Positions 12,103-40,122 of a stretch of DNA of 64,000 nt are shown here, one piece after another. Each line of letters starts with the position of its first letter. Positions within the stretch are counted from its first letter, which is position 1. The DNA comes from Allorhodopirellula heiligendammensis. GTDB taxonomy: Bacteria; Planctomycetota; Planctomycetia; Pirellulales; Pirellulaceae. The notes under the pieces are model-generated. The model worked only from the letters and a program-made list of their open reading frames with translations. It was not told where the DNA came from and ran no database searches. The DNA lies in contig NZ_SJPU01000004.1 in the NCBI RefSeq assembly GCF_007860105.1, forward strand, positions 62,001 through 126,000. Direction: 5' to 3'. Both the position numbers and the translations under genes were made by a program.

Positions 12103-12156
12103 CGTTCTCACGGTGGTCGGCCACCCTGAACGAGACCCTCACATGAAGGCAGGAAG

Positions 12157-19500: not shown

Positions 19501-20308
19501 TTTTGAAAGCTTCTTGAAGCCGCTTGGTCGTAAGCACCGCTGAGTGGGAAAGGACGGGTCGCGCGAACTGCACAGGGGCGATTGGTTCCATCATAAAAGG
19601 TGCCTCCGTTGTCATTGTCGCGGCCACGAGAATCTCGCCATCAACCCGCGTTGCCGGAGCCAGCACGAATGGTTCCTGGATGCGGCGCAGAGCACGACTG
19701 TCGACACAGCAGCTATGCGCCGCGCTATCAACTGAGATTGCTCTGATTCGCAGAACCTCCAGACCCTCCGCTGTCCAACTGTCGTTGGCAGCCAAATAGA
19801 TTTTGGCTTCGACGGCGTTTGCAGGGATTCGAGGATTCAAAATCTGCAACCCTGACGCGGGGTCGATCAGTCCCAGTTCGATTTCTCCGTCGTAACCAAA
19901 ACGCGACACCTGCACGTCCAGAGCGAAGGCGCCGTGGCCGGGCTCCACTAGAAAATCTTCCTTCGTGGTGGCGTCCGCCTTCATCGCGACGGTGAACGTT
20001 CCCGACGGAACGCACTCAATGTAATAAGTGAATTCCTCGCCGCCGCGTTTGAGCAGGTCAGTCACCTCCAATCGATACTCACCATCTTCAGGAAATGTCA
20101 CTTCAAAGCTCCACTCGTCTTCGTTGGTGACGTTCGTCCCGCCGACTCTGGCGTTGAGAGAATTCAATAGCTGCATCTGCACGAGCGAGGGGCTGCCCAG
20201 GCTTCGTGTTTTCGCCGCGATACGCATGACTTGCCCCTTGGCACCGCGAATCTGATAATTGTCAACTTCTAACGGTTGCTCCAACCGGCCGTTGATGCCA
20301 ATCGGCAA
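16592..20308 (-). CDS. PSCyt2/PSD1 (DUF1549-DUF1553) protein with Ig-like domains; downstream part of an amber-split gene
   Basis: The part after the amber codon has 1238 residues if counted from TTG 20308, but the frame is open back to 20359 and the 17 residues between read as normal protein. The order is PPC-like beta domain (about 1-110), further beta-rich domains (to about 520), a PSCyt-type heme segment with the unusual spacing CNSGACH, a bacterial Ig-like region (LEVYPDAKQILAVRDGG to ARGEVAILVR), DUF1549 with CAKCH and LRRISLDLLGILPS, and C-terminal DUF1553 (RIEANRIWAQLFSRGIVDP). The domain order matches long planctomycete proteins that begin with the part encoded at 20360-21247. The C-terminal heme domains carry no further stop. 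Without readthrough this part would lack a signal peptide and could not be exported. Confidence 0.85.
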   Translation of the reverse strand: MPIGINGRLEQPLEVDNYQIRGAKGQVMRIAAKTRSLGSPSLVQMQLLNSLNARVGGTNVTNEDEWSFEVTFPEDGEYRLEVTDLLKRGGEEFTYYIECVPSGTFTVAMKADATTKEDFLVEPGHGAFALDVQVSRFGYDGEIELGLIDPASGLQILNPRIPANAVEAKIYLAANDSWTAEGLEVLRIRAISVDSAAHSCCVDSRALRRIQEPFVLAPATRVDGEILVAATMTTEAPFMMEPIAPVQFARPVLSHSAVLTTKRLQEAFKTPVTLLPGPLPSGWTVGTAIDKGAHTLSLTRSVVNAEDRGGPVEAEQLPLLVYGEFNGHGRIETYNLPIAWIDPVRVTTRFPEPFVRGGRASVEVNLFREGGDPQPVMISLADLPVGISAPEAVTIAADQTKATFELQIAGDVDLGDVNLEGAHAFTLCAASTYEGHDFTVASTHPLPVLLDSPTKLVVYPKAVALTDSRGRQQIAVSGINQQNRPRDWTRDARMTSANPEIAVVRAGVVYPIADGETEVIIEVGGNRHVIPTLVSSLATPRPVEFESEVLVGLSKQGCNSGACHGSPSGKGGFRLSLRAFDKNLDELTLIREDFGRRTNPIDPEQSLLLLKPLMNVAHGGGKQLHKNDVAYTILRDWIASGAAADPRGTARITRLEVYPDAKQILAVRDGGQQLVVTAHFADGRQRDVTHLAAYETSDTSVATVNANGFVTPHARGEVAILVRLLEYIESVPMMFVENLEDFQWQSPSPNNYIDQLVNAKLQQLQYLPAETCSDDEFLRRISLDLLGILPSVEETTAFLANTGEDKRTRLIDSLLERKEFAKFWALKWGDLLKMNRKLVGDEGIYKYHRWVEQSLHDNTPYDEFARQLLTGSGSTLANPPANFYRTSADMNECVETISQVFLGARLQCAKCHNHPFERWTQDNYYGLGTFFSRVQRRNTGRPGEMFVYTSSSGDVTQPRTGEVMSPWLPQVGSIESPNDTDRRTAFVAWLVNPGNPYFARIEANRIWAQLFSRGIVDPIDDFRDSNPPSNAALLDALATEFVESGYDRKHLLRLILNSRTYQASYRTTKFNQDDTKYFSHQEPRLLGAEQLLDAINRTLALEQRFGSLPAGTLATQLPAPDVVKVDFLKVFGQPERSTVCACERTDDSTLGMAIELFNGPMIHGKLRDENNRFRKSLAEGEPVKDVIRDIYFAALCRLPSDIELKAALQHCSKNPDLVVGVEDVCWALFNTDEFLFQH

Positions 20309-20359
20309 GGTCAGACTGTCAGTCGCTTTGGACTCATTGAATTGCGGGTACGCGCTGCG

Positions 20360-20362
20360 CTA
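20360..20362 (-). other. In-frame amber codon interrupting one long reading frame
   Basis: On the minus strand the frame reads SSSWVPI, TAG, then RSAYPQFNESKATDSLT, and runs on without a shift into LPIGINGRLEQPLEV of the downstream part. The 17 codons between the stop and the TTG at 20308 look like ordinary coding sequence. A single substitution in a sense codon, a sequencing error or recoding would all explain it. Confidence 0.85.
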
Positions 20363-21247
20363 GATCGGCACCCAACTCGACGATTGACCATCGTCGAATC
20401 TCGCAGGAACCTGTAGGACCTTACTTCCGTCTCCTGGAACTTCGATTTCGCGGGGCGGCAAGCTCTTCCCATCGGGGCCCGTGAAGACAACCTCTGTCTG
20501 CTCACCACCGCGAACAGCCAAAGGAAAACATTGATTGATGATTGGGAAATCACCGACCCGCAATTGGTAGCATGCGCCACCGGCCGAGTTACGACTGTCG
20601 TGAATCTCTAGCCAGTAGTCACCTGCGTCAGAGAATTCGTAGCTGAACTGACAGTCGGGGCCGACCGATGTGTCGTCGACTTGGGCAAGGGTCTCTCCTG
20701 CGGCGTTGATTAATCGCAGTACCGGATCCATCGTAGAGCGAAGTGCTTGCGTGTGGACTGAAACAGAAACTCGCTCACCTTGGCTCGCGCGGATCCGATA
20801 AAAATCGCTTGCCGATTGATCACAAACGCCTTCGACCGTTGATTGCAGCGTGAGCTCCTGGGCGGTTGCGATCGAATGATTGCTGCCACTGTCGATGACC
20901 ATATCCAAATCATCGACAAATAAGGTGTGTTCCCAGACGACGCCCGTCGGCGTCGCCAACCAAAGACTTTTCGGGCCCAATGACGTAGTGCTGGGAATCG
21001 TCAACGCAACGGTTACTTCTGTTGGCTCCGCCCGCGAGACTGTCCAGTGCACCGAATGGTCACTCGATGCTAACCGCAGCGAATCATCTAAGTCGGCTCC
21101 CCGAACGACTAACTCGATCGTTTGCCCCGGCTGGCAGGTTCGCGGTTGAACCGCGGTAATCGTTTGGGCCGACGCCAACGATGCCATGCATAGCCACAGG
21201 ACGTTCGTGGTGCAGACAGTGAGTATTCGATTTCGCATGGAATCCAT
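20360..21247 (-). CDS. Exported PPC-type beta-domain protein; N-terminal part of an amber-split PSCyt2/PSD1 gene
   Basis: I start at ATG 21247; ATG 21238 is equally possible, and longer versions overlap the DUF1501 gene and are unlikely. The product has 295 residues. A signal peptide (MRNRILTVCTTNVLWLCMAS, cut near ASAQ) is followed by an Ig/TIG-like domain (QPRTCQPGQTIELVVRGADL) and a PPC (bacterial pre-peptidase C-terminal) domain (SDFYRIRASQGERVSVSVHT, then GDYWLEIHDSR). It ends at an amber codon, after which the same frame continues into a large PSCyt2/PSD1 protein. I therefore read this as the exported N-terminal third of one gene of about 1550 residues. The DUF1501 stop lies 40 bases upstream. 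Confidence 0.82.
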   Translation of the reverse strand: MDSMRNRILTVCTTNVLWLCMASLASAQTITAVQPRTCQPGQTIELVVRGADLDDSLRLASSDHSVHWTVSRAEPTEVTVALTIPSTTSLGPKSLWLATPTGVVWEHTLFVDDLDMVIDSGSNHSIATAQELTLQSTVEGVCDQSASDFYRIRASQGERVSVSVHTQALRSTMDPVLRLINAAGETLAQVDDTSVGPDCQFSYEFSDAGDYWLEIHDSRNSAGGACYQLRVGDFPIINQCFPLAVRGGEQTEVVFTGPDGKSLPPREIEVPGDGSKVLQVPARFDDGQSSSWVPI

Positions 21248-21287
21248 TCGATTGTTAGGAGAGATATCCGTGACAGTTCGCGCGATC

Positions 21288-22703
21288 TCACACGAGCAAT
21301 TCATGCAGTACTCTCCCTGATGTGATGCGGTGAGGCCGCTCCTCTCGATCAAGCAGTGCGGTTTCAGTGGGCAATCCCATCGCATGCAGAATGGTGGTGG
21401 CGAAGTCCTGTGGTGTGACTGGATCGGAGGCAGGGTAAGCGGCATGTTTGTCACTGGATCCGTAGACCATGCCGGGCCGAATTCCGCCGCCGGCGAGGAG
21501 CCCGCTGTAGCAAAACGGCCAGTGCTCTCGCCCCGCATTTGCGGCCGTGATCTGTGGCTTGCGACCGAACTCACCGACCCAAGCGACAATCGTCTCATCC
21601 AAGAGACCACGTTCTTCGAGGTCGGTTAGAAGCGCCGACAACGCCCTGTCCGCTGGAGGAATCAAGTCGTTCTTAAGACGATTGAAATTGTCACCGTGCG
21701 TATCCCAGAAGTTCTTCCCATCGTTATGCCAATTCACTGAAATCAGCGGTACGCCGTGCTCGACCAACCTTCGCGCCATTAAAATGCACTGGCCATGAAT
21801 ATTCCGGCCGTAACGCTCGCGAGTTGCGTCGCTTTCCTGGGTCAAATCAAATGCTGAGCGCACGTTGCTCGACCCAATCATCTCCATCGCTCGCGACTGA
21901 TGGCTCCCGTAGGATGATGCGCCGAGCGAGTGCTGCAACGTCGCACGCTGCCGATCGAGCGTCTTCAATAGTTCCACTCGCGACTCCAAGCGGTCGAGAC
22001 CGATGTCCGCTGGCAGAGACAATCCCTGGGGATGCCAGTTCGGATCATTCAGGTCGCCGTTGAGCAACATACCGTCGTGGGCCGAACCCAACCAACCACC
22101 GTGTTGCCCAGGGGCTTCGCCGCCTGGGGCGGCAGGATGATACGCTTTCCACGGCATGGCGACGAACGAAGGCAAGCCGTTGGTGCTGGGGCGAAGCTTC
22201 GAGACGATTGCGCCTAGATGGGGCGAGTCCTTGGCACTGGGTGGATCGGCATCGCTCTTAACAACCGGTGCGAGCTGGCCCGTCAGGGTTGCATGACCGC
22301 TAGACAAGTGAGCGGGATCGTCATGCGTGAGCGAACGAATGATCGCGACCTTGTCTGTCATGGACGCAAGCCCTGTAAAGTGCTCGCAAATCTGAGTCCC
22401 GGGCACTTTCGTTGAAATCGGGTTAAAGCTGCCGCGAACCTCCGCCGGAGCGTTGGGCTTCAAGTCGAATGTGTCGAGCTGGCTTGGCCCACCCCACATA
22501 AATAGAAAGATGCAAGCCTTGGCACGTTTCTGAGGCAGGTTCTGGCTGCTTGATTGTGCCAAAGCCAAGCGAGTTTCTAGCTCCCCCCAGCCAAGCCCCA
22601 ACGCGGAAAGGGACCCCGCCTGTAGAACTTGGCGGCGACTCAAGCGACTGCTTCGGCGGAATTCGCGGCAGCCCGAACTCGTACTTGTTTCTCGATCTGA
22701 CAT
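21288..22703 (-). CDS. DUF1501 Tat-exported sulfatase/phosphatase-fold protein
   Basis: The product has 471 residues. The N-terminus has a twin-arginine-like signal (LSRRQVLQAGSLSALGLGWG). The DUF1501 body shows FLFMWGGPSQLDTFDLKP, HLSSGHATLTGQ, VGEFGRKPQ and GREHWPFCYSGLLAGGG, the positions expected for the metal sites of the alkaline phosphatase/sulfatase fold. It is the first gene of a minus-strand run that continues with the amber-split PSCyt2/PSD1 gene and the PSCyt1-WD40 gene. The gap to the next gene is 40 bases. It is distinct from the DUF1501 protein at the left edge: both have the core motifs but differ widely elsewhere. Confidence 0.93.
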   Translation of the reverse strand: MSDRETSTSSGCREFRRSSRLSRRQVLQAGSLSALGLGWGELETRLALAQSSSQNLPQKRAKACIFLFMWGGPSQLDTFDLKPNAPAEVRGSFNPISTKVPGTQICEHFTGLASMTDKVAIIRSLTHDDPAHLSSGHATLTGQLAPVVKSDADPPSAKDSPHLGAIVSKLRPSTNGLPSFVAMPWKAYHPAAPGGEAPGQHGGWLGSAHDGMLLNGDLNDPNWHPQGLSLPADIGLDRLESRVELLKTLDRQRATLQHSLGASSYGSHQSRAMEMIGSSNVRSAFDLTQESDATRERYGRNIHGQCILMARRLVEHGVPLISVNWHNDGKNFWDTHGDNFNRLKNDLIPPADRALSALLTDLEERGLLDETIVAWVGEFGRKPQITAANAGREHWPFCYSGLLAGGGIRPGMVYGSSDKHAAYPASDPVTPQDFATTILHAMGLPTETALLDREERPHRITSGRVLHELLV

Positions 22704-23483: not shown

Positions 23484-24539
23484 ATGTGGCGACTATCAGT
23501 CTTCACCGCAGTCGTCGTGGTCCCATCGCTCCTAAATTCCGGTTCAGTAGTTGCCTGGGAGAGGTGTGGAATCCTGCCAGGCCAGCAGGTGATTTCTCCC
23601 CACGGTGTGCTGAGTCATTCCTGCGCTTGTTCGGTACCGTGCAAGCCCTTCAACTCAGTCGCTCCCATCTTGCAGTCCGCACCGCTTTGTCAACCTTGCA
23701 GCCAGACCATCCCATCGCTCGTAGCCGCCGAACCGCCTCCTGGAAAGAAGGCTGTCGTCAAGACACGCGAAGTTACCTACACCGTGCAGGTACCCAAAAC
23801 TCAGTTACGAGAAGAGAGCTACACCGTAGAAGTCCCTTATCAGGAAACGCGAATTGAGAACGGCAGGCCAGTCACGACCACGAGCTATCGCTCCGAAACG
23901 CGCACCCGGACGATTAACGAAGCGATCATGGTACCCGAAACTCGCGTGCGTACCGAAAGCTACATCGAGTACGAAGATGTTAAGCTGGGAGCAAGTAGTT
24001 TCGCAGTCGCAGAAGGATACCAAGGTGCGAATGGCATTAACGTTTCACTATTGCGTGATCGAATCAATGAGATTGTTAGCCACACCGTTGGTGAAGTCGA
24101 CAAATCCAAGGAAAAGCTTACTTTTGATACGGTAACTGTCGCCGCCTACGATCCTTCCGATCTCGAAACGTACACCGTGACCTGCACCATCGATGGTAGT
24201 GATGTGCGAGTTGAGGTTGAAGGCGCCACGACCACCGAGAAACTCAATAGGCTATCTCATCAAGTATCTGATGCGCTGCAACCTCAGCGGACAGAATCTC
24301 AGCACGACGTGCCGACTGCCCAGTCAGGGTCCCGAATCTGGACGCATGCGGATGGTGAACGCCAGGTGCTCGCTCACTTCGTACGCAAGCAGGGGCTGAG
24401 CAAGGTAACTCTCCGTCGCAGCAAGGACAGTCAGCAATTCACGGTAGATCTCGATGCGTTGAGCCCAGCGGACATCGCTCATATCAGTACGTTGCCAGCG
24501 GCTCCCAACTTCGTCGCTACCGTGAAGTTGCTTCAGTAA
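23484..24539 (+). CDS. Secreted protein with YTV-type repeats and C-terminal SHD1-like domain
   Basis: ATG 23484 is chosen because GGAG precedes it by 7 bases and a signal peptide starts there (WRLSVFTAVVVVPSLLNSG, cleaved near VVA). The product has 351 residues. A Cys-rich stretch follows (about 32-78, eight Cys). A repeated tract at about 85-155 reads VTYTVQVPKTQ, ESYTVEVPYQETR and ETRTRTINEAIMVPETRVR, the extracellular YTV pattern seen in planctomycetes. The C-terminus (RIWTHADGERQVLAHFV to VDLDALSPADIAHI) resembles the SHD1 domain, a small beta barrel. The function is unknown; a structural or envelope role is plausible. Its last 23 bases overlap the convergent CHAT-STAND gene. Confidence 0.8.
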   Translation: MWRLSVFTAVVVVPSLLNSGSVVAWERCGILPGQQVISPHGVLSHSCACSVPCKPFNSVAPILQSAPLCQPCSQTIPSLVAAEPPPGKKAVVKTREVTYTVQVPKTQLREESYTVEVPYQETRIENGRPVTTTSYRSETRTRTINEAIMVPETRVRTESYIEYEDVKLGASSFAVAEGYQGANGINVSLLRDRINEIVSHTVGEVDKSKEKLTFDTVTVAAYDPSDLETYTVTCTIDGSDVRVEVEGATTTEKLNRLSHQVSDALQPQRTESQHDVPTAQSGSRIWTHADGERQVLAHFVRKQGLSKVTLRRSKDSQQFTVDLDALSPADIAHISTLPAAPNFVATVKLLQ

Positions 24540-27500
24540 CTAGATTCCACACCGAGTCACGTTCGTCGCGTACCGAACCTGAGCCATGCTCGGTTTTTAG
24601 CTTGCGTCGCAGCTGAGCAATCGCTTCCTTACGAAACGATCCAAAACAAAGTGGGTGTTTGAGAACATCAGTGACATCCAGGCTCGTACCCCCTACCAAA
24701 ATCGCTCTCGCAGTAATCTCAAATGTTTCGGGATACTCGGTTATCTCCAGCTGTTTTCGCAGCCGTTCCCTTACCGGGATGAGTAGGTCATGCGAGCCGT
24801 CAACGAACGTCGCCAATAGGACATACTCAGCAGCAAGGATGCGAGTCTGCTCCGGCGTTAGGATACTATTGAAACCTTTCGAGTATTTACGCCTAAACGC
24901 GTTGATGCAGTCCATTTTCCCAGACTCGGCCAATAAGTCGCTATTGGCGAACTTCGGTGCGTAATTGCACAATATGCGAAACGTCTCTGGAGATTCGACC
25001 AAAGTCTTGATTGCTTGCGCCGGGGCCTCAACCTCGCCAAACTCAGGTTCCCTCATCGAATCGTCCAGTGAGGCGACCGCAGCAAACAGGTGACAGGCTG
25101 CGATTGGATTGCCCTGATTGAGTTTCTGGACTCCCTGGCTTAGAACCTCCCTGACAGATTCCCGCGCTGAGCGTGTGAACGTGGCAGCAAAGAGTTGTGA
25201 CTGTTCGGCCCGCCATTGGGCTGCCCCCGTCATCAGCATTGATCCTGCTACTTCGTGGCATTGACGTAACCATCGATTACCCTCCCAATTCGGGTCCTGA
25301 CAACGTGGACTGCTTTTCATCACGCGGGCAATCGCCATCGCTGTTGAAAATTCTCCGCTCGACTCGAACTTAGGAGCGGCGGATGTGTCTGAAGTAAGCA
25401 ACCAGTCATTAGCGAGCTCAACGACCGTCGCCCATTGCCCGTCGGAAAGCTCAATCCCCAGGAGTCGCCGCAGGGTGGCCTCGGTGACGGGGCGGTCATT
25501 GGTGGCGAGCATTGCTTGGATACAATCGAAACGTACATCATCCTCGGGGTCCAAGACTGGCACGATGAAGCTTAAAATGTCGCAGTCGGTCGGGGACGCG
25601 CGGGCACCGTCCAATATCCGCTGGGCCTCGTCTTTGCATAGAGTCCGCGTGGCGATGGCGCTGTCTCCCAAGATCCGATTCTGTTTAAATTGACCTGCCA
25701 AGATGCGAAACAAATTTGGCGTGAGATTGAGTTTCTGCGTCTCGCTTGCAATGAGGAACCGCGTCCTCTCATTGAGTTGCTCGTGATGTTGGCTCGAGAT
25801 CAGAGCAGCAGGAGGAAATGCACTGACAACGATCCTGCAGATCATTTCCGTTTCCGGGGAATGGATATCTGGCTGCAATCTCGCTGCCTCCCACTCTGCC
25901 ATAACAACATCAATCGATTGCGTCATGGCGACGTCCTTAAGTAGCTTGAGCCATCTCACTGGTTTGTGCTCGGTCAGTCTCGAGTATTCCTCTTGCAATC
26001 TCGATAGTATTTTCATTTCTACATCCGGATTGCTCGACAACAAACTCAACAAGACCCGTCTTGACTCGTTGAAGTGGGCGTCATGCTTGCTGTGACAGTC
26101 GTTGACTATTTGTGTGGCGAGCTCGATGAGAACGCGTTCGTGCAGGCCATGTTCAGAACCGTCCGCTGGGTAGCCTAGCTCTAAATACGCGGCCAGACTT
26201 AATTTCAAGCGCTGATTCATATCGCCGAAATCGTTGCCGGTGAAATAGGTGTCGATCACATCGCGACGTGAGTCGCGGTCAATGCCAACCATCGCGATTG
26301 CCAGCGGTTCCATTCTCGTGACGAGCCGATCATCCTGTACTCCCTGCAACGTGACCTTGAGTGCCTCGGCGCGTAGCAGCGGGTCCGAACGATCTATCGA
26401 GAGTAGACTTGCACGCTCCAGCTGAGTTAACGAATCGACCTCCTCAAGTGTCGTCTCGGCCGACAGATCACCGATGGGTGACAAGAGTGCCACAGCCGTT
26501 TGATTCAACAACTCGGCATTCTTCCGAGCTAGGTTTTCGCGAGCTACCTCCACCCACACGAGCGAACCCAGTACAACCAGTGCCATCGCGACGAAAGCAC
26601 CAACAAGTCGCCGACGGCTTCGACGCCGTCGGGTTCGCTCCTCGCGACTCCGCCTCAGCATTCGCTGTTCGACGTTGTCCAAATTTCTTGTGCCACGCAG
26701 TCCCTTCTCTACCGTCGTCAGATCAGCGTCATCCAGGACAGGACCCATCTTGTGCTGCGAACACTCCGGTGCATCAACCACATCGACAGACCGCCAATCA
26801 ACTGACCGATTGTCCAGGATGCGGCGCGCACGTTGGCCCGGTTTGTCAGATTGGTCGAAGCGTTCGCGAATGAGCGGAGCTAGCGTGTCGTGCGCGAGCC
26901 GCGTTGCTTTGGAGCTTTCTTTCTGATTGCCCGTGGGGATGGTCAGCAAGTACAGTGATTGGCATTTCTGAAGCAGCTCCGGTAGCAAGGCATCAAGATG
27001 AGCATACTGATCCTGCAATTGCTCAACACTGCATTGTCCGGCGGTGCCCAACGGCGTGGTGTGCAGCGACAGCATGTCTAATAGCAGGCCCGAGCTCACG
27101 TCTTCAGGAAACTCCTCGCCAAATAGGGCGATCTGCCGGTCAAGAAAATCACGCAGCAAGATGCCGTCGCGTTTCAGGCGATAATATAAATCTCGGCTGA
27201 ATCGTGGGTATTGGTAGCTCTCATCCTTGGCCGTTTCCCACATCTTGGTTAGCAAGATCTGTAAAGTTGGCGCGATGGCTGAATCATGGTCCTCTAACAA
27301 ATCGTCAGCAATGATCTCCGCCAGCCCATCGTCAACCTTCAGACCGTAATGGTCTCGTAGTCGCGGCGATCGAGCCGGTCCCTGCACGACCTCGATAATT
27401 CCACGACGGCTGAGCGGCTCGAGGAACACCAGCTTTCGCGGTAGCTGAAAGGCTTTCAACTTCTCATCCAGCTCAGCGAGCCATTCCTTGCGGAAGCCGA

Positions 27501-28713
27501 AAATCAATTTGCCCCGTGGCCGCGTGGCCACTGCGGTGAATGTCGCTCTCAACGCCTCGAGCATCTCGTTGAGTTCCTCGTCAGGCGACATCTCAGCATG
27601 CGGACGTGTGTAAACTTCCTCAACCTGGTCGAGAATTACGATTAATGGCTTATCCAGATGCTTTTCTTGTTCGAGCCAGGCAGTTTCGAGCGGCATCTCG
27701 CACGCATCAGGCTGATTTTGGATTGCCAGTTGCAGTGTCCCCAAGAGCCCCAGGCGTTGATCGCGCCGGTAATACCGGACTTCATAGTTTGGCTCCAAAC
27801 GCGGGATAAGGCCGGCATCGAGCAACGACGACTTGCCCACACCCGACTGGCCGTAGAACAGCACGATCGGAGCGGAGCGAGAAGCGGTCAGTTGGTTGTA
27901 CAGATCCCGAATCGGATGCCCCCGGCCAAAGAACAGGTCCGCGTGCTGTCGTTCGAACCAGGCGAGTTGCCGGTAGGGCTGTTCTGGCAAATCCTGATGT
28001 GGCAGCGACGGTAGACCTGCGAGCGGAGCATCGGCCGCGTCGGGAAGATTCCATTGATCGGCCGTCTCCGAGCCCGGACGCAGATACAAATTCCAAGGCC
28101 AACGGTCTCTCTCCGACTGCTGTTTTTGATCGTCGTTCTCACCGAAATACAGAGACCGCAGATCGCCACCTTTCGCGGTTTGCACCGCTGCGGCAGCTTC
28201 TTCGTAGGCAGTACGAATGGAGGCGTTCCCCGCCAATCCTTGGTAGAACTGACAAGCAAAATCGGTGGCTACCTGGTCATCGATCGATCGCGACGTTGAG
28301 ATCACCATCGAAACGTTCGCGTCGAGCAGATCCTGCGTTTGTGGCTGAGTGGAGCAACCGTTGAGAAACACAAGCTGTAGGCCACGCTGCTGGGCGAGAA
28401 ACGCAGCGAATCCGCCCGCATCTGCCGCTAGCGCTCGTCCCGCGGCGGACTCCAACAGCAGCTGATAGCCGTTGGCGTGTCCGCCGTAGTGAAAGATTGC
28501 AACGCGATTGCGATATTGAGGATCCTGAAAGACCCTAAAAATATCCTCGGCGGTCGCGTTGGCTCGCTCGACAACTTCGCACAATCCAGTCTGCCTCAAT
28601 GCCTGGCGAATTCTCCGCAGCTCGTCAGGCAACTGGCTAAGCGTGCTGATATTGCTTTGGTAGCCGTTCGCGAAGGCGAGAAAGACGATCGGTTTTTGGT
28701 TTGTGTCATTCAT
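24517..28713 (-). CDS. CHAT protease-STAND NTPase-membrane protein with long unique C-terminus
   Basis: ATG 28713 aligns with the start of the neighbouring paralogue; TTG 28728, with AAGGA upstream, is the alternative. The product has 1398 residues. Residues 7-185 are a caspase-like CHAT domain with the dyad H79 (FHYGGHANG) and C120 (FLNGCSTQ). A linker leads to a STAND NTPase (about 255-620): FFGRGHPIRDLY, Walker A GQSGVGKSS at 288-296, Walker B LIVILDQVEE at 357-366, and a winged-helix-like end (TRLAHDTLAPLIRERF). A basic patch (RTRRRRSRRR) and one membrane helix (703-721) follow. The last 660 residues are helical and unrecognised; they may be the sensor. It is the last of three tightly packed genes. 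The expected role is ligand-triggered oligomerisation with protease activation, by analogy to NLRs; this is inference. Confidence 0.92.
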   Translation of the reverse strand: MNDTNQKPIVFLAFANGYQSNISTLSQLPDELRRIRQALRQTGLCEVVERANATAEDIFRVFQDPQYRNRVAIFHYGGHANGYQLLLESAAGRALAADAGGFAAFLAQQRGLQLVFLNGCSTQPQTQDLLDANVSMVISTSRSIDDQVATDFACQFYQGLAGNASIRTAYEEAAAAVQTAKGGDLRSLYFGENDDQKQQSERDRWPWNLYLRPGSETADQWNLPDAADAPLAGLPSLPHQDLPEQPYRQLAWFERQHADLFFGRGHPIRDLYNQLTASRSAPIVLFYGQSGVGKSSLLDAGLIPRLEPNYEVRYYRRDQRLGLLGTLQLAIQNQPDACEMPLETAWLEQEKHLDKPLIVILDQVEEVYTRPHAEMSPDEELNEMLEALRATFTAVATRPRGKLIFGFRKEWLAELDEKLKAFQLPRKLVFLEPLSRRGIIEVVQGPARSPRLRDHYGLKVDDGLAEIIADDLLEDHDSAIAPTLQILLTKMWETAKDESYQYPRFSRDLYYRLKRDGILLRDFLDRQIALFGEEFPEDVSSGLLLDMLSLHTTPLGTAGQCSVEQLQDQYAHLDALLPELLQKCQSLYLLTIPTGNQKESSKATRLAHDTLAPLIRERFDQSDKPGQRARRILDNRSVDWRSVDVVDAPECSQHKMGPVLDDADLTTVEKGLRGTRNLDNVEQRMLRRSREERTRRRRSRRRLVGAFVAMALVVLGSLVWVEVARENLARKNAELLNQTAVALLSPIGDLSAETTLEEVDSLTQLERASLLSIDRSDPLLRAEALKVTLQGVQDDRLVTRMEPLAIAMVGIDRDSRRDVIDTYFTGNDFGDMNQRLKLSLAAYLELGYPADGSEHGLHERVLIELATQIVNDCHSKHDAHFNESRRVLLSLLSSNPDVEMKILSRLQEEYSRLTEHKPVRWLKLLKDVAMTQSIDVVMAEWEAARLQPDIHSPETEMICRIVVSAFPPAALISSQHHEQLNERTRFLIASETQKLNLTPNLFRILAGQFKQNRILGDSAIATRTLCKDEAQRILDGARASPTDCDILSFIVPVLDPEDDVRFDCIQAMLATNDRPVTEATLRRLLGIELSDGQWATVVELANDWLLTSDTSAAPKFESSGEFSTAMAIARVMKSSPRCQDPNWEGNRWLRQCHEVAGSMLMTGAAQWRAEQSQLFAATFTRSARESVREVLSQGVQKLNQGNPIAACHLFAAVASLDDSMREPEFGEVEAPAQAIKTLVESPETFRILCNYAPKFANSDLLAESGKMDCINAFRRKYSKGFNSILTPEQTRILAAEYVLLATFVDGSHDLLIPVRERLRKQLEITEYPETFEITARAILVGGTSLDVTDVLKHPLCFGSFRKEAIAQLRRKLKTEHGSGSVRDERDSVWNLVTEATSR

Positions 28714-28772
28714 ACGAAACCACTGCAATGGTCGTCCTTCGCGTTATGGTCGGTTGGATACAGAAATCGGAG

Positions 28773-31631
28773 TCACCGCGTGGCGGCGGACCTCGTAAGC
28801 AGCTCGTCGCAACACTCGCCCACGGTATCTGCCAGCTCGCTGAGTTTGCGCCTCGAATCCGCTGTCAACTTATCAAGATCCCAGCTGTGAAGTCCCTCCT
28901 CGCGGTACTTGTACATGGCGACTTCAAGGGTCGTGTCGCGTTCCCGGATGAGCTCGTTGTGCTGCAGCTCCACCCACCAAAGTTCGGCCCAATACAGCCT
29001 TTCAAACTCTTTCCTCCATACACTCATTGCTGCTCGATCGGGCGTCGCACTGGCAATGTTTCGTGTGACTTGACGTGCTCGATCGGTAAGGGCTCTGTTG
29101 AAGAGATCGCGTTCCATTTGACGTCGCAGATCTTTGGTCGCGTTGTCGATGGACGAGTCAGCGGCCAACGTGAGCTCTAAACCCGCGATGGTCCGTCGAA
29201 CTAACTCGCGGACCCTCAGCCTGCACTGCGCCGCAGGATGTTGATCCTGCCAAACTTCGTACGGCCCGTCGTATTGCTCCCATGCCTGAATGAGCTCATC
29301 GATGTGGAGGGCTATTTCAGAGATGGCGGGAGTGATCAGGCGAAGAGTGTCGGGATTGTTGGATTCCACCAGCGCATTGTAGGCGTCACGAGCCTCTTGA
29401 GCGGTTTCGGCCGCCGCAATCTCGCTGGCCCAACGCGGCCAATCTAAGTACAAACTGAGATGATCCTTCACACTAAACTGTGCAAACCGCAGATTCGTTT
29501 CCGCCTCATACCACTTCCATCCGGCAACCCCGGCGAGAATCGCGATGGAGGAAGCGACAAGGCCCCACGTCACTCTTCGGCGGGCGCGAACTGCACGACT
29601 GCTGCGGACGAGTTGCTCTTCTTGAGAGCTCCACTTTTGAGTTCCCTGCTGGCCGTCTTCAACCGTCTTCAAGTCAGTCAGATCCAACGGGGTGAGCCGC
29701 CGACCGTCGGTGCATTCCCGCACGCGTGCGTCCAGAATCCTCCGTGCCCGTTGACCGGGCTTGTCAGACTGTTCAAACCGCTGACGAACGAGCGGTGCGA
29801 TGGTGTCATGTGCCAGTCTCGTCGTTTGAGAACCTGCGTTGGCTGAATTGTCTGCAATGCTCAGCACATAGAGGTCCTGACAGTGCTGAAGCAAATCCGG
29901 CAGCACTGTTGATACATGCGAGTAGGCATCTTGTAGTTCTTTCAGCGAACACTGATCCGCCGTGCCGAGAGGCGTTGTATGGAGGGCAATCACATCCAAC
30001 AGCAAACCGGAATCCACTGCGTTGGGACGACGACGGTGGATCTCCTCAATCTGTTGATCCAGAAAATCTCGCAATAGAATTCCATTCCGCCTGAGCTGCT
30101 GATAGAGTTCTTGGGTCATCGGTGGATGCCCAGAGTTGATCTGTTTCGCTTGCCTCCAAAGTTTCGTCAGCAAAATCTGCAGCGTTGGCGCAACCGAGGA
30201 ATCACGATCCTCGAGTAGATCGTCGGCAATGATTTCTGGAAGATCGTGATCAATCTGCAGACCATACTGCATCTGCAATCGGACCGTTGAAGTTGGCCCT
30301 TTCACCGCTTCCATAATTCCCTGCCGCCCCAACCGCTCTAGGAAGACTTGCGAACAAGAAAGTCCGTATTTGCCGATCTGCGATTCCAATTCGGCCAACC
30401 ATTCCTTGCGAAAGGCCAACACGAGTTTCCCCTGTGGACGGCGATTCACGTCACTGAATATGTCATTGAGGAAGTTCAAGAACCTCTCCAATTCATCGGG
30501 GAGCTCCTCGATTGGTCTCGTGAACAGTTCTTCCACTTGATCCAGAATTACGATAACCGGCCGGCCAAGCTGCGTTTCTCTCGCCCTCCATGCATCCTTA
30601 CTCAGCCCGCATTGAGGGGGCAGCTGCAATGCCTGGCGAAGCGAGCCGAGTACACCTTCGTCGGCTCGACGCTCGTACGCGACATCGTATTGAGACTCGA
30701 GACGGGGGATCAATCCAGCGTCCAACAATGACGACTTCCCAACTCCCGACTGTCCGAACAGTAGCACAATTGGCGCGTTCCCCGGTGCCGTCAGTCGATC
30801 GTAGAGCCCCCTAATTTCACGGCCGCGGCCAAAGAAGACCTCGGCATCTTCTCGTCGGAACCAATTCAGTTGCCGGTAGGGGCTGGCAGGAAGGTCTTGT
30901 TTGGGTACCGGGGGCAGACCGAACAGCGGATCGTTCACCGCCAGCGGGAGACTCCACTGGTCAGCCGATTCTGAGCCCTCGCGCAAGTAGAGATTCCAAG
31001 GCCAACGATCTGTCGCTTGGATCGTGGTCGCTTCGCTCTGAGAATCACTCCCGAAATACAACGCCCGGATGTCTTTACCTGTCGCTGTTTGCACCGACGA
31101 TTGTGCCTCCTTGTACGCAGTGCCAACCGCCGCTCCTCCTGATAAGCCCTGATAGAACTGAAAAGCAAAATCGGTGGCGACCCTGTCGTCGATTGCTTCC
31201 GATGTCGAGATCACCGCCGGGATATTCGCATCGAGCAATCCATCGGTATGCAGCTGTGTCGAGCAACCATTCAGAAACACCAAACGCAATCCCTTTTGCT
31301 GCGCTAGAAATGCGGCGAGACCTCCCGCATCTGCCGCTGCCACGTTGCCCTCAGCGGATTCGAGCAACAATTGAAAACCGTTGGCATGCCCACCGTAATG
31401 AAACACCGCAACTCGGTCGCGAAGCCGCGGATTCTGGAAAACTTTGAAGATGTCATTGGCTGTCGCGTTAGCGCGGACGACCACGTCACACAGCTCCGCC
31501 TGTTCGGCCCTCTCCAAAGCTGCTCTCAGCTGCCGTGCTTCCTCTGACAAATGTCTCAGATATCCACCGGGCTCCTGGTGGTTGTTGGCAAAGGCCAGAA
31601 AGACAACGGGCTTGGGATTAAGGTCGGACAT
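28773..31631 (-). CDS. CHAT protease-STAND NTPase-membrane protein, shorter paralogue
   Basis: The product has 952 residues and starts at ATG 31631 (MSDLNPKPVVFLAF). The CHAT domain has H82 (FHYGGHANG) and C123 (FLNGCSTQ). The STAND NTPase has FFGRGREIRGLY, Walker A GQSGVGKSS at 293-301, and Walker B IVILDQVEELF at about 360-370. One membrane helix lies at about 688-706 after a short basic run. The C-terminal 245 residues are helical and charged, and I see no likeness to the C-terminus of the downstream paralogue. The front 690 residues match the neighbour block by block, so the pair arose by duplication with replacement or fast divergence of the tail. It lies 27 bases after the caspase-hydrolase gene. 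Confidence 0.92.
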   Translation of the reverse strand: MSDLNPKPVVFLAFANNHQEPGGYLRHLSEEARQLRAALERAEQAELCDVVVRANATANDIFKVFQNPRLRDRVAVFHYGGHANGFQLLLESAEGNVAAADAGGLAAFLAQQKGLRLVFLNGCSTQLHTDGLLDANIPAVISTSEAIDDRVATDFAFQFYQGLSGGAAVGTAYKEAQSSVQTATGKDIRALYFGSDSQSEATTIQATDRWPWNLYLREGSESADQWSLPLAVNDPLFGLPPVPKQDLPASPYRQLNWFRREDAEVFFGRGREIRGLYDRLTAPGNAPIVLLFGQSGVGKSSLLDAGLIPRLESQYDVAYERRADEGVLGSLRQALQLPPQCGLSKDAWRARETQLGRPVIVILDQVEELFTRPIEELPDELERFLNFLNDIFSDVNRRPQGKLVLAFRKEWLAELESQIGKYGLSCSQVFLERLGRQGIMEAVKGPTSTVRLQMQYGLQIDHDLPEIIADDLLEDRDSSVAPTLQILLTKLWRQAKQINSGHPPMTQELYQQLRRNGILLRDFLDQQIEEIHRRRPNAVDSGLLLDVIALHTTPLGTADQCSLKELQDAYSHVSTVLPDLLQHCQDLYVLSIADNSANAGSQTTRLAHDTIAPLVRQRFEQSDKPGQRARRILDARVRECTDGRRLTPLDLTDLKTVEDGQQGTQKWSSQEEQLVRSSRAVRARRRVTWGLVASSIAILAGVAGWKWYEAETNLRFAQFSVKDHLSLYLDWPRWASEIAAAETAQEARDAYNALVESNNPDTLRLITPAISEIALHIDELIQAWEQYDGPYEVWQDQHPAAQCRLRVRELVRRTIAGLELTLAADSSIDNATKDLRRQMERDLFNRALTDRARQVTRNIASATPDRAAMSVWRKEFERLYWAELWWVELQHNELIRERDTTLEVAMYKYREEGLHSWDLDKLTADSRRKLSELADTVGECCDELLTRSAATR

Positions 31632-31658
31632 ATCAAGGAATGCTCCACCATTGATGCG

Positions 31659-34600
31659 TTACCATTGAATGCTCGCCATGGCTTTCAGTCCTGCGTCGGA
31701 ACTGAAATAGTTCAGGTGATGACAGACAGCCAACTGCAATTGAGGTGCTGGCGTTCGATTGCCAGGCACGCCTTGGATGCTATCGTAGGCGACGGCGATG
31801 TCATGTCCCTCATTGCGATAGAGTGCATCAAATATGACTCCAGAACCGACCTTGGCAATCAGTCTCGCCATAATCTGGTCGGTGGATTCATAATAGTCGC
31901 GGATGTCGCCGGCAATGATTGTGTATCGCACATTAGGATCGAGACTGGAATTGAGCGCATAAATGAACTCCGAGGTGACGTTCATCTGCTCGAGCGTTGG
32001 GGTCACGTTCTTGGAACGATTCAACAGGTAGACCAACGCTCCAGCCCAGGGCGTGATTGCTGGGAAGGTGTTGATCGCCAACGTTGTCAGAACACTGCAA
32101 AGCTGCCTCGCTGAGTCGATCGCACCGAAAGGTGATCCAATGTTGGGCGTGCCAAACATCACGAGATGATCGACGACCGCATTGCCTCCCTCGCGCTCGA
32201 TGAACCAACGCGAGACCAGACCACCCATGGAATGCACAAGCAATGTCAGGCGTACATCATCGTGTTCGCTTAATCCAACTTCAGCCAGCTGCTGTTGGAG
32301 CGCGACAGCGGTGTCCGCAATGGACGTGCTGAGGTTTTCGTAATCGTAGGTGAGCACCAAATCGAACTGTTCATCGACGCTCCTTCCATTCGCGTCTCGC
32401 GCCATGGTCAACCCCTGGGCGATTCCATCGGTGTCTCCGATGATCCCATGGATTAGCAGCAAGACGTTCTTGGCTGCCGCGACACGCGCGGCCACTCCGC
32501 GCTGATGCTTCACAATTGAGCCATCTGACTTGTACTCGACCCAGCAGATTTTGTTGACATTGCTCCGTCGCAAGTATGTTTTGAAAAAATAAAGTTTCAG
32601 AGCGCCTCCGAGACTGCGGCGATTGTCTGGAATATTCGGCAGATGACTAATTCGGATCTGTGTCCGTCCGCCTTCGCACTTCGTCGGATCTCCTGTCAAC
32701 AGGATATGCTCGCCGTCGAAAGTTAAGGGCAAAATAAACTCGTCATCTGCTAAGTCGACATTCAGTTCAATCTCCAAGGGAGAACGAGTGAGCGTCTCGG
32801 GGTTTTGAATGTCGGAAAACTCCAACACGTTTCCTGTATCGCTATCGCCACGGGTTCCGGCGAAACTGAGCAACTCCATGCCTTGTCGCTCGAGAGCTCG
32901 TTCGAAACCCGCTCCTGCAACGACACCACGGCTCTTCGATTCAGGAGTGAGAAGACTCACACCAGCTTGGAAAGATGGATGGCCCTTGATCGTGATCTGG
33001 CGATTAGCAAGCGTTGTTTCCTGTTCGCTCACACGGCCAATTTCACGCACCAGTCTGACTCGAAGATCCTTCGTGAACCATTCGTTTTTGTGAGCAAGCT
33101 TCTTTCGCGGCGGGCCAAAACTCAACCCGCGGGTTGCCGAATCACCTGCGATCTCGCCAAGTTTTAATGGCTCTTGACCAATGAGAAAATCATCAACCTT
33201 CTCGGTGCTGACGATGATCTTGAAGGTGTGTATCGCATCGTCACCCTCGCATTCCTCTAACGCCAGGTTGAAAACTGCATTGCCATCGAGCGTGATGGTA
33301 AATTCTGCATCCGTGGGCTCGATCCGTTCGTTATACAAGACCTGGATGCCGTAGTCCTCCGAGAAGTGGGTCAGCAGCATGTGCAACGGTTGAGACGAAC
33401 GATTCTCCGCCTTCAGGGTACCGCGAACGACCTTCCAATCGCCATCCTGCGAATCAATACCGATGGTGATCTCCGCGCCAGGGTATTCGTACTGCTTGGT
33501 GTCGCTGAAAACCTCGCAAAATTTGAACGGCACATCGTCCAGCTCTAACCTCGTCGATTCATTCCGGAGCGTTACCGCTCGCTCCCAGGCAGCAATCCGT
33601 TTGAGAATCGAGAACATGTACGCGGCCGCTTGCTGCGTGTAACCAATGGCTCCTTGGATTAACTCGCCCGTCTCGCGATGCTTCAGCAAGTAGCGTCCAT
33701 CGTCTGCGACCAGCAGGTAACGTCCTCGTGCGGGTATGGAATGCAGCAAAGCAAACCCATCGGCGCGATTTTCTGATGCGGCGAGTGAGTCTTGGAGGAC
33801 GTCGATTCCCGCGGCATCCCCGTCGACGTTCACCGCAAGCGGCGGAACGGGCAGACTTGTGATCTCTGCCTGGTACCGGGCGGACGAATCTGCCTCGAGG
33901 TCCAGCAACTTCAAGTCACTTTTTTGCGGTCCGACTCGAGTCGTCGTCGCGTATCCCGCGAGTCGCGTTGGACTTGATTCAGAGTACAGGGCGAGTTCAA
34001 CATGCTGCTCAGGTGCACTAGCGAGCCCATGCAAGGCCCCACAAGCGACCTGCCAGCCGTTGTTCTCAAAGGAGACGCTGTACCGACGAGCAGCTTGCGA
34101 TGCCACCCCGCTTAAAAAATCGCCGTATGCATTGAAACTCTTATAGGTTTCGAATTGCGGGTTCTGATTGTCAGCCCGTTTGCGTACCATCGCGCGGCAG
34201 CGGACGAAGAGGTCAGCGTACGAGATCCGGGTTCCCGACTGCTCCAACACTTCGAGCAGCGTGCTGGTGAACACGCCCCTGTGATCGTTCCCCTCCCAAG
34301 CCTTCTGTACACGTTCGCACGCCGCGAGGAGGATGTGGCGGCTCACAGGAATCTCAAGTGATTCTCCTTTGTTCAACAGGTCGATGTAGAACCCGTCCAG
34401 ATAGCTCTCCAACGGCCGCTCGTGGGGAATTTCATGTGTCTGCCGTGCCCTGAACTGCGTGAAGTCATCCGCGCTGCGTGTTGCTGAACCCGAATGGCAG
34501 CAATCAAAGATAACGGCGAGATGAGGCGAATTTTTCGCAACTTCAGCCAACAGTACGGCTAACTCCTTGTCCGCCAAATCGGTGCAACCAGGGTCTCGAC

Positions 34601-34931
34601 TGTTGTAACAGACCAGACCTTCATCCCATCCGTCAGGATAAAACTTCCTAAACTCAACCGCCGACTTCGAACGAGCACCGTGACCGCAGTACTGGAACAC
34701 GCACACATCATCTTTATCAGCCCTGCCGAGATGTGCTCGAAATCGTTCGATGACATTCTCACGCGTCGCGTCCGCATCCAGCAATGTCTCGATATGTAAA
34801 CGGTTGCGATCATAGTTGTCCAACAGGTAATCGCTGAAGTGCTGGACATCGTTGACGCAGCCATAGAGCCTACCGACGTGAGATGGGTAGTCATTGATAC
34901 CGACAAGCAATGCATAGATCTCATTCGCCAT
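31659..34931 (-). CDS. Metacaspase (peptidase C14)-alpha/beta hydrolase fusion
   Basis: I use ATG 34931 (TTG 34934 precedes it directly). The product has 1090 residues. Residues 4-270 form a C14 caspase domain: LLVGINDYP, H84 in YCGHGAR and C145 in DCCHSGSATR, the metacaspase dyad. A middle region (about 280-800) is beta-rich, with probable Ig-like sensor or adaptor domains (GRYLLVADDGRYLLKH; EITIGIDSQDGDWKVVRG). Residues 820-1080 form an alpha/beta hydrolase: LLLIHGIIGD, nucleophile S901 in LVHSMGG, FGTPNIGSPFG, and a late HH pair (1071-1072). It resembles lipases of the PGAP1 type. The protease could activate the hydrolase or be activated with the downstream CHAT-STAND proteins. It is the first gene of that operon. 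No signal peptide is seen. Confidence 0.9.
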   Translation of the reverse strand: MANEIYALLVGINDYPSHVGRLYGCVNDVQHFSDYLLDNYDRNRLHIETLLDADATRENVIERFRAHLGRADKDDVCVFQYCGHGARSKSAVEFRKFYPDGWDEGLVCYNSRDPGCTDLADKELAVLLAEVAKNSPHLAVIFDCCHSGSATRSADDFTQFRARQTHEIPHERPLESYLDGFYIDLLNKGESLEIPVSRHILLAACERVQKAWEGNDHRGVFTSTLLEVLEQSGTRISYADLFVRCRAMVRKRADNQNPQFETYKSFNAYGDFLSGVASQAARRYSVSFENNGWQVACGALHGLASAPEQHVELALYSESSPTRLAGYATTTRVGPQKSDLKLLDLEADSSARYQAEITSLPVPPLAVNVDGDAAGIDVLQDSLAASENRADGFALLHSIPARGRYLLVADDGRYLLKHRETGELIQGAIGYTQQAAAYMFSILKRIAAWERAVTLRNESTRLELDDVPFKFCEVFSDTKQYEYPGAEITIGIDSQDGDWKVVRGTLKAENRSSQPLHMLLTHFSEDYGIQVLYNERIEPTDAEFTITLDGNAVFNLALEECEGDDAIHTFKIIVSTEKVDDFLIGQEPLKLGEIAGDSATRGLSFGPPRKKLAHKNEWFTKDLRVRLVREIGRVSEQETTLANRQITIKGHPSFQAGVSLLTPESKSRGVVAGAGFERALERQGMELLSFAGTRGDSDTGNVLEFSDIQNPETLTRSPLEIELNVDLADDEFILPLTFDGEHILLTGDPTKCEGGRTQIRISHLPNIPDNRRSLGGALKLYFFKTYLRRSNVNKICWVEYKSDGSIVKHQRGVAARVAAAKNVLLLIHGIIGDTDGIAQGLTMARDANGRSVDEQFDLVLTYDYENLSTSIADTAVALQQQLAEVGLSEHDDVRLTLLVHSMGGLVSRWFIEREGGNAVVDHLVMFGTPNIGSPFGAIDSARQLCSVLTTLAINTFPAITPWAGALVYLLNRSKNVTPTLEQMNVTSEFIYALNSSLDPNVRYTIIAGDIRDYYESTDQIMARLIAKVGSGVIFDALYRNEGHDIAVAYDSIQGVPGNRTPAPQLQLAVCHHLNYFSSDAGLKAMASIQW

Positions 34932-35267
34932 CAAACTGACTCTTGGTGTTGGAAGTCCACTCGATCACCGTTCTACTCACCGCATCGTTTCAGCCATGCA
35001 CGCCAACCGTGCTCATAGACACTCAAACTCCACGACGCCTCCTCGAAGCGGATGCATCGTATAGTCCAGCGGAGGGGGTGGCAATAGTTTTGCTATCTTT
35101 TCAACGAAGCCGTCTTCGGCGGCCAGTCGGATACGTCCTGCTGAATGTGAGTCGCAAACTCGTTGCTGCGTCGTGAAGCATCATCGTATTGAGACGTTGC
35201 AATAGATTTGATGATTTTTTGGTGTCACCGCTGAGTTTGGCAACTGTCAGCTCAGAGTAACGCTAGA
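34932..35267. other. Divergent region between caspase/CHAT operon and peptidase/MoxR operon
   Basis: These 336 bases must hold the promoters of two large operons facing apart. A tight GCCG-TCTT-CGGC hairpin lies near 35108-35119 but has no T-tract on either strand. No promoter pair is convincing by eye. A regulator binding here could control both operons. Confidence 0.45.
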
Positions 35268-38794: not shown

Positions 38795-39098
38795 CAAACA
38801 TCACAAACTTGTTGCACCTTGAATCAACCGGTCAGCGCTAGCCCCGGTTTCCTATCGCCAGCAGCGAGGAACACTCACTAACATACCAACGTGCGATGCT
38901 TCACCTTCGTCAAGATAGCCGCAGTTCTAAGCGTCCAGTAGAACGCGGCTAGCGGCCACCGACTGATTCCCACTCGGACGAGTCCGAACGATCCACGACT
39001 GCTGAAACGCCGGTGCTAGCCGCCACCAATGTTATCTCGTATGGATCGCCGCGAAACTTGAGACGCCCCCGAAACCTCGATTAAAAGTTCTTTTGCCG
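38795..39098. other. Intergenic region with three GCTAGC-centred motifs
   Basis: This 304-base gap interrupts an otherwise tight operon. It carries GCTAGC at 38837-38842, 38948-38953 and 39015-39020. The second and third sit in nine-base arms GCGGCTAGC (38945-38953) and GCTAGCCGC (39015-39023) that are exact reverse complements, so a stem with a loop of about 61 bases could form. Around the first, AACCGG and CCGGTT flank the core as a second inverted repeat. No gene is visible. Confidence 0.5.
38945..39023. repeat. Inverted repeat GCGGCTAGC / GCTAGCCGC
   Basis: Two exact nine-base inverted arms lie between the DUF4159 and MoxR genes. A related GCTAGC copy lies about 110 bases upstream. They may be a genome-wide interspersed motif, an operator, or an RNA hairpin that tunes downstream expression. 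Confidence 0.5.
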
Positions 39099-40112: not shown

Positions 40113-40122
40113 TCGGATTCTC

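Follow-up and report, generated by a model that had tools for sequence, protein, structure and literature searches.

A conserved caspase-hydrolase protein encoded beside predicted outward-facing protease-STAND receptors in Allorhodopirellula heiligendammensis and other bacteria

Three adjacent genes of the planctomycete Allorhodopirellula heiligendammensis combine a caspase, an α/β-hydrolase and two membrane-bound protease-STAND proteins. Which function could unite these parts, and does their association extend beyond one genome? We analysed a window of 64,000 nucleotides (the whole stretch considered here; contig NZ_SJPU01000004.1, positions 62,001 to 126,000), to which all coordinates refer. 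The three co-directional open reading frames (ORFs) lie, with all their features, on the minus strand at 31659-34934, 28773-31631 and 24517-28728. The first gene, hereafter CasHyd (31659-34931), encodes 1090 residues from the ATG at 34931, with a TTG alternative at 34934. It is followed by sensor 2 (28773-31631; 952 residues) and sensor 1 (24517-28713 from its ATG; 1403 residues from the alternative TTG at 28728). The intergenic gaps are 27 and 59 bases, the latter shrinking to 44 with the TTG start of sensor 1. The 99% identical homologue P0055 aligns with sensor 1 from the ATG onward and supports this start, so that the spacing of 27 and 59 bases reported in the initial annotation is correct. 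Such spacing suggests a single transcript for the three genes. As detailed below, the module and the topology of its membrane proteins are well supported, and outward-facing sensors with exchangeable ectodomains are a strong prediction.

CasHyd is composed of a C14 caspase domain (Peptidase_C14, E-value 1.4e-22, residues 7-263, 34146-34916), a middle region of about 550 residues that Pfam does not match, and a DUF7379 α/β-hydrolase domain (5.5e-17, residues 825-995, 31950-32462). The caspase part matches metacaspase and MALT1 folds and contains the His84 (34680-34682) and Cys145 (34497-34499) dyad as well as conserved Asp pocket residues. CasHyd is a predicted metacaspase-type protease with putative Arg/Lys specificity. 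The hydrolase part is lipase-like, with lipase and esterase fold matches and the nucleophile Ser901 (32229-32231); the candidate Asp1044 (31800-31802) and His1072 (31716-31718), located behind the Pfam span within the same fold, complete a Ser-Asp-His triad. His84, Cys145 and Ser901 are almost invariant among 194 relatives, and CasHyd is a member of a coherent full-length family rather than a chance assembly. The middle region is β-rich; the fold comparison barely covered it and has no bearing on its novelty, and we assign no fold to it or to the ectodomain of either sensor. A linker directly behind the catalytic cysteine (residues 146-212, 34296-34496) is modelled with low confidence and yet conserved, Arg163 and Arg172 being kept in 99-100% of the 194 relatives, which makes it a candidate cleavage or activation loop.

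Both sensors contain a CHAT protease domain (Pfam E-values 1.9e-7 and 1.3e-6), an nSTAND1 NTPase domain (4.9e-37 and 7.5e-33), a single transmembrane (TM) helix and a predicted extracytoplasmic C-terminal region. In sensor 2, the CHAT domain (31071-31550) carries His82 (31386-31388) and Cys123 (31263-31265), and nSTAND1 (29802-30881) has the Walker A motif GQSGVGKS (30732-30755). Its TM helix (29517-29573, hydropathy score 1.64) is preceded by a K/R-rich stretch and followed by a mostly helical domain (28776-29516), for which seven compared homologues have similar C-termini. In sensor 1, Pfam places CHAT, confirmed by a motif check, at 28162-28653 and nSTAND1 at 27220-27978. The TM helix (26551-26607, score 2.53) again follows an Arg-rich stretch, and the domain beyond it (24520-26550) is an orphan, since residues 745-1403 match one near-identical protein only. 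Of the best relatives of sensor 2, 120 were taken, and its first ~700 residues are covered by 114 of them. The CHAT His-Cys dyad and the checked Walker residues are kept in 113-114 of the 114 (K299 in 113, D364 in all), and all four motifs, namely CHAT His and Cys and Walker A and B, are found in sensor 1 as well. The annotated architecture of a C14 caspase-hydrolase fusion and two CHAT-STAND-membrane proteins with intact catalytic and Walker residues is thus borne out by the Pfam domains, one TM helix per sensor and near-invariance in 194 and 114 relatives. Pfam searches detected no nuclease domain in the three proteins.

The association of CasHyd with such sensors is not restricted to this genome. 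A scan of 84,980 species genomes yielded 390 stretches matching one of two patterns; 234 of them encode CasHyd relatives, and the best 80, among them many related cyanobacteria, were kept as loci. They belong to seven named phyla: Cyanobacteriota (27), Pseudomonadota (18), Planctomycetota (12), Bacteroidota (10), Thermodesulfobacteriota, Acidobacteriota and Calditrichota (3 each), with four loci lacking a phylum assignment. At least 1.5 kb downstream of CasHyd was available in 69 loci. A same-strand CHAT, caspase or STAND gene within 600 bp downstream was present in 37 of these 69, versus 10 of 295 background genes, that is, other genes of the same loci (p 1.4e-22, a value that overstates independence because the loci are related to each other, and obtained with partner hidden Markov models seeded partly from the same loci). 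The partners are caspase-nSTAND1 proteins in 19 loci, CHAT proteins in 12, CHAT-nSTAND1 proteins in four and caspases alone in two, and in seven of the 12 CHAT-only loci a separate STAND gene follows. The initially suggested module is supported as a conserved one, in that CasHyd and protease-STAND sensors stay together in many relatives. What stays constant, however, is not this exact trio: it is CasHyd accompanied by at least one sensor armed with CHAT or a caspase, a well supported unit with conserved linkage.

One locus of the 69 has no partner gene and carries a fusion instead (L127, 2924-11845, a Nostocales metagenome-assembled genome of Mojavia pulchra). A single ORF of 2973 residues contains, in this order, CasHyd, a caspase, nSTAND1 (in four stretches), a TM helix (2505-2523) and Peripla_BP_6 (2621-2955). 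A single polypeptide here unites executor and sensor parts, and the fold that follows the TM helix is of a periplasmic ligand-binding type; this is one case, from a metagenome-assembled genome.

Presence within the family of the window was scored on first-look candidates only, up to five per genome (up to two in the phylum sample). Matches to CasHyd at E<=1e-10 occur in 29 of 149 genomes. The match is long in 11, including one truncated and one with an in-frame stop, and limited to shorter pieces, chiefly the caspase or the hydrolase part, in 18. The sensor is matched in 12 of the 149, ten matches reaching CHAT and two (G048, G094) covering the STAND part only. By hand tally, nine genomes share a long CasHyd match and a CHAT-reaching sensor (p 7e-12). 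The A. heiligendammensis assembly itself (7.18 Mb, 35 contigs, 97.6% complete) has a single Peptidase_C14 match, CasHyd, and, besides sensor 1, one weak match to sensor 2 (4.5e-4) over the Walker region, so that no further partners of their kind are obvious in the cell. In a CasHyd tree (FastTree, long branches flagged) the sequences group mostly by phylum, with 10 phylum changes where the least possible is six and with Electrothrix and Thiosymbion beside the planctomycetes as an exception. We therefore make no claim of high mobility, and an origin of CasHyd by horizontal transfer only was rejected.

Individual loci show further variation. Rhodopirellula solitaria CA85 has two separate CasHyd loci (L053, L054), each with its own sensors, one caspase-type and two others CHAT-type. 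In L063 (3543-7154) and L065 (6069-9620), CasHyd is separated from the CHAT or caspase-STAND genes by a histidine kinase of the propeller type (Reg_prop, Y_Y_Y, HisKA, HATPase). In L085 (G117, 9956-13327) the CasHyd relative is split between two frames, caspase versus the rest, with an in-frame TAG, perhaps through decay, error or a natural split; its pieces were scored apart, and a divergent CHAT gene lies upstream. The CasHyd of L076 (G113) is without its hydrolase end.

On which side of the membrane do the variable domains reside? The initial annotation had likened the architecture to NLRs. Of the 114 sensor homologues, 109 have a TM helix where the STAND module ends or close by, and only two have more than one TM helix. 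Among the 109, K/R residues are more frequent before the helix in 106, a bias that predicts an outside C-terminus for these, equal in two and fewer in one. In a hand tally of the CasHyd loci, 44 of 59 STAND-bearing ORFs, some of them fragments, have a TM helix behind the STAND part, and K/R residues before it are higher in 41, equal in two and lower in one. The junction helix and the positive-inside bias argue against a soluble cytosolic NLR-like protein of the bNACHT or Avs type; judging from sequence, the sensors probably cross the membrane once and act as receptors that face outward.

The outer and inner halves of these receptors differ in conservation. Beyond the TM helix, relatives carry WD40, TPR, FGE/SUMF1, LRR or other domains, or nothing known, while the inner half is conserved. 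For pairwise comparison, proteins with fewer than 120 residues past the junction were left out and 109 kept; pairs are not independent of each other. No detectable outer similarity remained in 737 of 955 pairs whose inner halves are 60-70% identical and in 302 of 365 pairs at 70-80%. Above 80% most pairs keep the outer part: a C-terminal match is missing in five of 35 pairs at 80-90% and in one of five above 90% (P0004/P0008). Ectodomain classes, entered by hand from precomputed Pfam lists with 22 'unannotated' rows that may hide known repeats, require 35 changes among the 109 labelled rows on the inner-half tree, compared to a least possible number of eight and a mean of 44.7 for shuffled labels; none of 200 shuffled sets was as low as 35. 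The labels are more clustered than by chance, suggesting that ectodomain exchange is frequent but not random. The sensors of the window, which are 58% identical across 714 residues and of which sensor 1 has a nearly unmatched outer part, fit this pattern.

What could a fixed caspase-hydrolase protein and exchangeable receptors do together? We propose a proteolytic death-type switch, in which outward STAND/CHAT receptors fire CasHyd, and consider the odds of this reading about even. CasHyd would be the executor, an inactive zymogen whose single chain combines a protease of the metacaspase type with a lipase-like hydrolase. The CHAT-nSTAND1 proteins would be single-pass inner-membrane receptors with the variable domain outside and the STAND NTPase and CHAT inside. 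Nucleoside triphosphate-dependent STAND assembly may be set off at the envelope by a ligand or by damage, and would activate the CHAT protease. CHAT might then cut CasHyd, the Arg-containing linker behind the caspase cysteine being the candidate site, and the released caspase and hydrolase could damage proteins and lipids until the cell is arrested or killed. Two paralogous sensors would provide two inputs for one executor. STAND assembly, cleavage direction and lipid damage are inferences within this model, and cell death and a benefit in defence are suggested by the domains. More tentatively, and with doubt prevailing, the sensors might be viewed as a bacterial 'death receptor': a single-pass protein with an exchangeable ectodomain and an inside initiator caspase-like protease on a STAND platform, firing a caspase and lipase executioner. 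This would be outside-in programmed-death signalling from apoptosome and inflammasome parts in several phyla, with the L127 fusion as all in one chain. If the proposed switch is right, bacteria would possess an outside-in proteolytic route to cell death that receptors trigger, in which a single conserved executor serves a set of swappable receptors; labour is otherwise known to be divided in this way in the immunity of animals and plants. The input of a fixed executor could be changed via ectodomain exchange, and CasHyd (C14 and DUF7379) would serve as a marker for finding such receptors.

Several observations weigh against the proposed switch. In 18 of the 69 loci the partner gene, though within 5 kb, is more distant, located upstream or encoded on the opposite strand, and in 13 there is neither a partner within 5 kb nor a fusion. 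Within the family, CasHyd occurs in two genomes (G120, G113) that have no sensor match including CHAT, and the only CasHyd relative in the sensor-bearing G138 is a distant one encoded away from the sensor. At E<=1e-60 in the phylum sample, CasHyd is found in two of 392 genomes and the sensor in three, only A. heiligendammensis having both. The others are G506, with a CHAT-nSTAND1 gene in two frames and no CasHyd, G219, with an nSTAND1 protein lacking detectable CHAT and no CasHyd, and G151, with CasHyd adjoined by opposite-strand CHAT-like ORFs and without a close sensor of the window type. The CasHyd model, built on 22 sequences, is only of moderate confidence (pLDDT 68, pTM 0.42; 72.9 and 0.36 for the sensor model, on 20 sequences), and a second poorly predicted stretch also has conserved Arg residues (R668, R694), so that the proposed cleavage loop is a guess. 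A hydropathy screen flags CasHyd residues 814-832 (score 1.63), which are modelled within the hydrolase fold. WD40 and TPR domains, present among the ectodomains, are more often cytosolic. Finally, no clear enrichment of defence genes was seen with PADLOC around the 12 planctomycete CasHyd loci. At E<=1e-5, we compared 80 of 82 listed neighbours (two starting at base 2 of a locus were omitted) with 80 of 82 genes sampled from 156 controls (the last two were dropped to equalise the sets). The neighbours match 49 families (25 shown) with at most two members each, mostly one redundant PD-T4-6 set of Ser/Thr-kinase type, and the controls match 22 families with one member each. As the table hides the number of distinct matching genes, we read this as no clear enrichment rather than proof of none. 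The defence or cell-death module surmised in the initial annotation stands in its conserved caspase-hydrolase and protease-STAND parts, and lacks both a clear excess of defence genes around the planctomycete loci and full-length relatives in phage records or in a two-pattern scan of viral contigs.

The lack of a clear defence-gene excess speaks for a second, rather unlikely reading, according to which the same module serves development, envelope-stress death or autolysis in rosettes, filaments or mats rather than anti-phage defence, its ectodomains reading self-made or environmental signals. Its hosts include Nostocales, Electrothrix and planctomycetes, which have a filamentous or aggregating habit, and the binding domain of the L127 fusion is of a small-ligand type. 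However, the patchy presence (11 of 149 family and 2 of 392 phylum genomes), the fast-changing ectodomains and the plasmid copies, one of them conjugative, look more like a conflict system. The order of events could also be reversed or parallel, CasHyd initiating and clipping the sensors, to free them or switch them off, or CHAT having other targets while CasHyd acts independently. Csx29 is reportedly a CHAT protease acting on a non-protease substrate, and the SAVED-CHAT target studied by Steens and co-workers in 2024 is said to be a caspase-like protease. This reading is favoured by the position of CasHyd, which is first in the operon, and by the CHAT protease Csx29 (PMC10028731). Against it, both the NTPase and the variable domain are on the CHAT protein, so that sensing starts there, and a CHAT protease heading a proteolytic cascade has a described precedent in SAVED-CHAT (PMC11417357). 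We regard this order as unlikely. Equally improbable is a cytoplasmic C-terminal sensor with the TM helix as a mere tether, which would make the proteins conventional NLR-like cytosolic detectors. STAND proteins typically sense in the cytosol through repeats such as WD40, TPR and LRR, five of 114 homologues have no junction TM helix, 15 of the 59 locus ORFs (some of them fragments) show none behind STAND, and a few end 6-31 residues after the last TM helix without an outer domain. Against this stand the charge bias of 106 to one over 109 homologues, the rarity of multiple TM helices (2 of 114), the 44 locus ORFs with their bias of 41 to one, and the periplasmic binding domain behind the TM helix of the L127 fusion. 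Non-lethal signalling, in which regulated proteolysis would go with lipid remodelling or with quality control and the hydrolase would be a housekeeping esterase, would suit a CasHyd that is conserved at full length mostly along phylum lines, but is very unlikely because CasHyd is rare and patchy even within its own genus, where four of six sampled genomes (A. heiligendammensis among the six) have no long match, and its sensors are exchangeable.

A further candidate, that CasHyd is phage or viral cargo, was rejected. In viral contigs, 19 stretches match one of the two patterns and none is a CasHyd relative; phage records contain no full-length relative, a single record having a 13% caspase match. 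Among plasmid records, 94 match CasHyd, four cover at least 80% of it, and three of the four were inspected. On an Anabaena sp. 90 plasmid (L159, 8001-16958) CasHyd is followed by a TPR-CHAT protein, with an AbiEii-type toxin gene nearby. A conjugative Rhizobium ruizarguesonis plasmid (L157, 4193-11474) has CasHyd divergent from a CHAT gene and a 767-residue protein with no Pfam match at E<=0.001. The Deinococcus aetherius plasmid (L158, 2590-12828) encodes a run of a papain-type C1 peptidase, an I42 protease inhibitor, a second caspase upstream of CasHyd, and CasHyd, with a sigma factor gene behind the run on the other strand. In the window itself, genes for PSCyt2/PSD1 and DUF1501 proteins lie close together at 16592-22703 (minus strand), and a MoxR-DUF58-BatA/VWA run at 39093-43397 (plus strand) is located 4-8 kb from the trio; its MoxR weakly matches MoxR of β-propeller ternary systems.

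How does this module relate to known systems? As initially annotated, it could not be assigned to a named one. The only PADLOC matches of the trio are a 'caspase' model (1.8e-31, CasHyd) and a DolB fragment (0.0033, a 28-residue stretch of sensor 1), and no listed system was matched. In the open-access literature, outside which subscription papers and preprints mostly lie, we found no description of receptors of the CHAT-STAND or caspase-STAND kind that have a fused caspase-hydrolase as their partner. The parts and the general logic are already known (Kaur 2020; Asplund-Samuelsson 2012; Doré 2024; Tuck 2025). In the VMAP ternary conflict systems, the caspase is stated to be 'always' accompanied by a neighbouring α/β-hydrolase gene (Kaur et al. 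2020, PMC7159879). From the portions of that paper available, these systems are likewise NTP-dependent and modular, with variable domains and planctomycetes among their hosts, but their hydrolase is a separate gene and their core is MoxR-vWA-VMAP, whereas caspase and hydrolase are one chain here. Pfam detects neither MoxR nor vWA nor VMAP in the products of the trio, and in the nearby MoxR-DUF58-VWA run VMAP was not searched for. The same paper describes a two-gene EACC1-caspase system, similar in its caspase, its membrane link and its wide choice of C-terminal domains, STAND and TM-PBP among them (PMC7159879). CasHyd scores below the cut-off of the EACC1-type caspase model (41.8 versus 140 bits) and carries a hydrolase, and no EACC1 gene was identified among the genes examined.

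The SAVED-CHAT cascade reportedly acts on substrates other than those proposed here (Steens and co-workers, 2024). In this cascade of type III-B CRISPR, the sensor is a SAVED second-messenger domain, as far as the consulted text goes, and not a STAND/TM receptor (PMC11229360, PMC11417357). Avs1a and Hachiman are described as protease-activated pro-nuclease pairs and Canu as a caspase-nuclease system (Tuck et al. 2025, PMC12799240). They resemble the present module in a pro-enzyme gene beside a sensor-coupled protease; in Avs, one protein comprises both protease and STAND sensor and the pro-enzyme gene is just upstream, and Canu uses a caspase. According to the available part of that paper, they employ a trypsin or MALT1-like caspase and a metallo-β-lactamase nuclease, in contrast to CHAT or metacaspase-like proteases and a caspase-lipase here. 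Metacaspase-NACHT-WD40 and metacaspase-ANF_receptor architectures, i.e. caspase-STAND-WD40 chains and caspases with an extracellular ligand-binding domain, have been catalogued (Asplund-Samuelsson 2012, PMC3501461); the accessible text describes neither a CasHyd executor alongside nor such a module and does not mention CHAT. Comparable to the sensors are nSTAND1 or CHAT proteins of multicellular bacteria diversified by diversity-generating retroelements, with C-type-lectin/FGE C-termini, some of them predicted to be periplasmic (Doré 2024, PMC10907252). Those proteins, in the sections available, vary by mutating one domain, whereas whole ectodomains are swapped here and CasHyd is a partner gene. 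Predictions for single proteins thus preceded ours (PMC10907252); new here are the generality of predicted periplasmic STAND sensors and their link to an executor.

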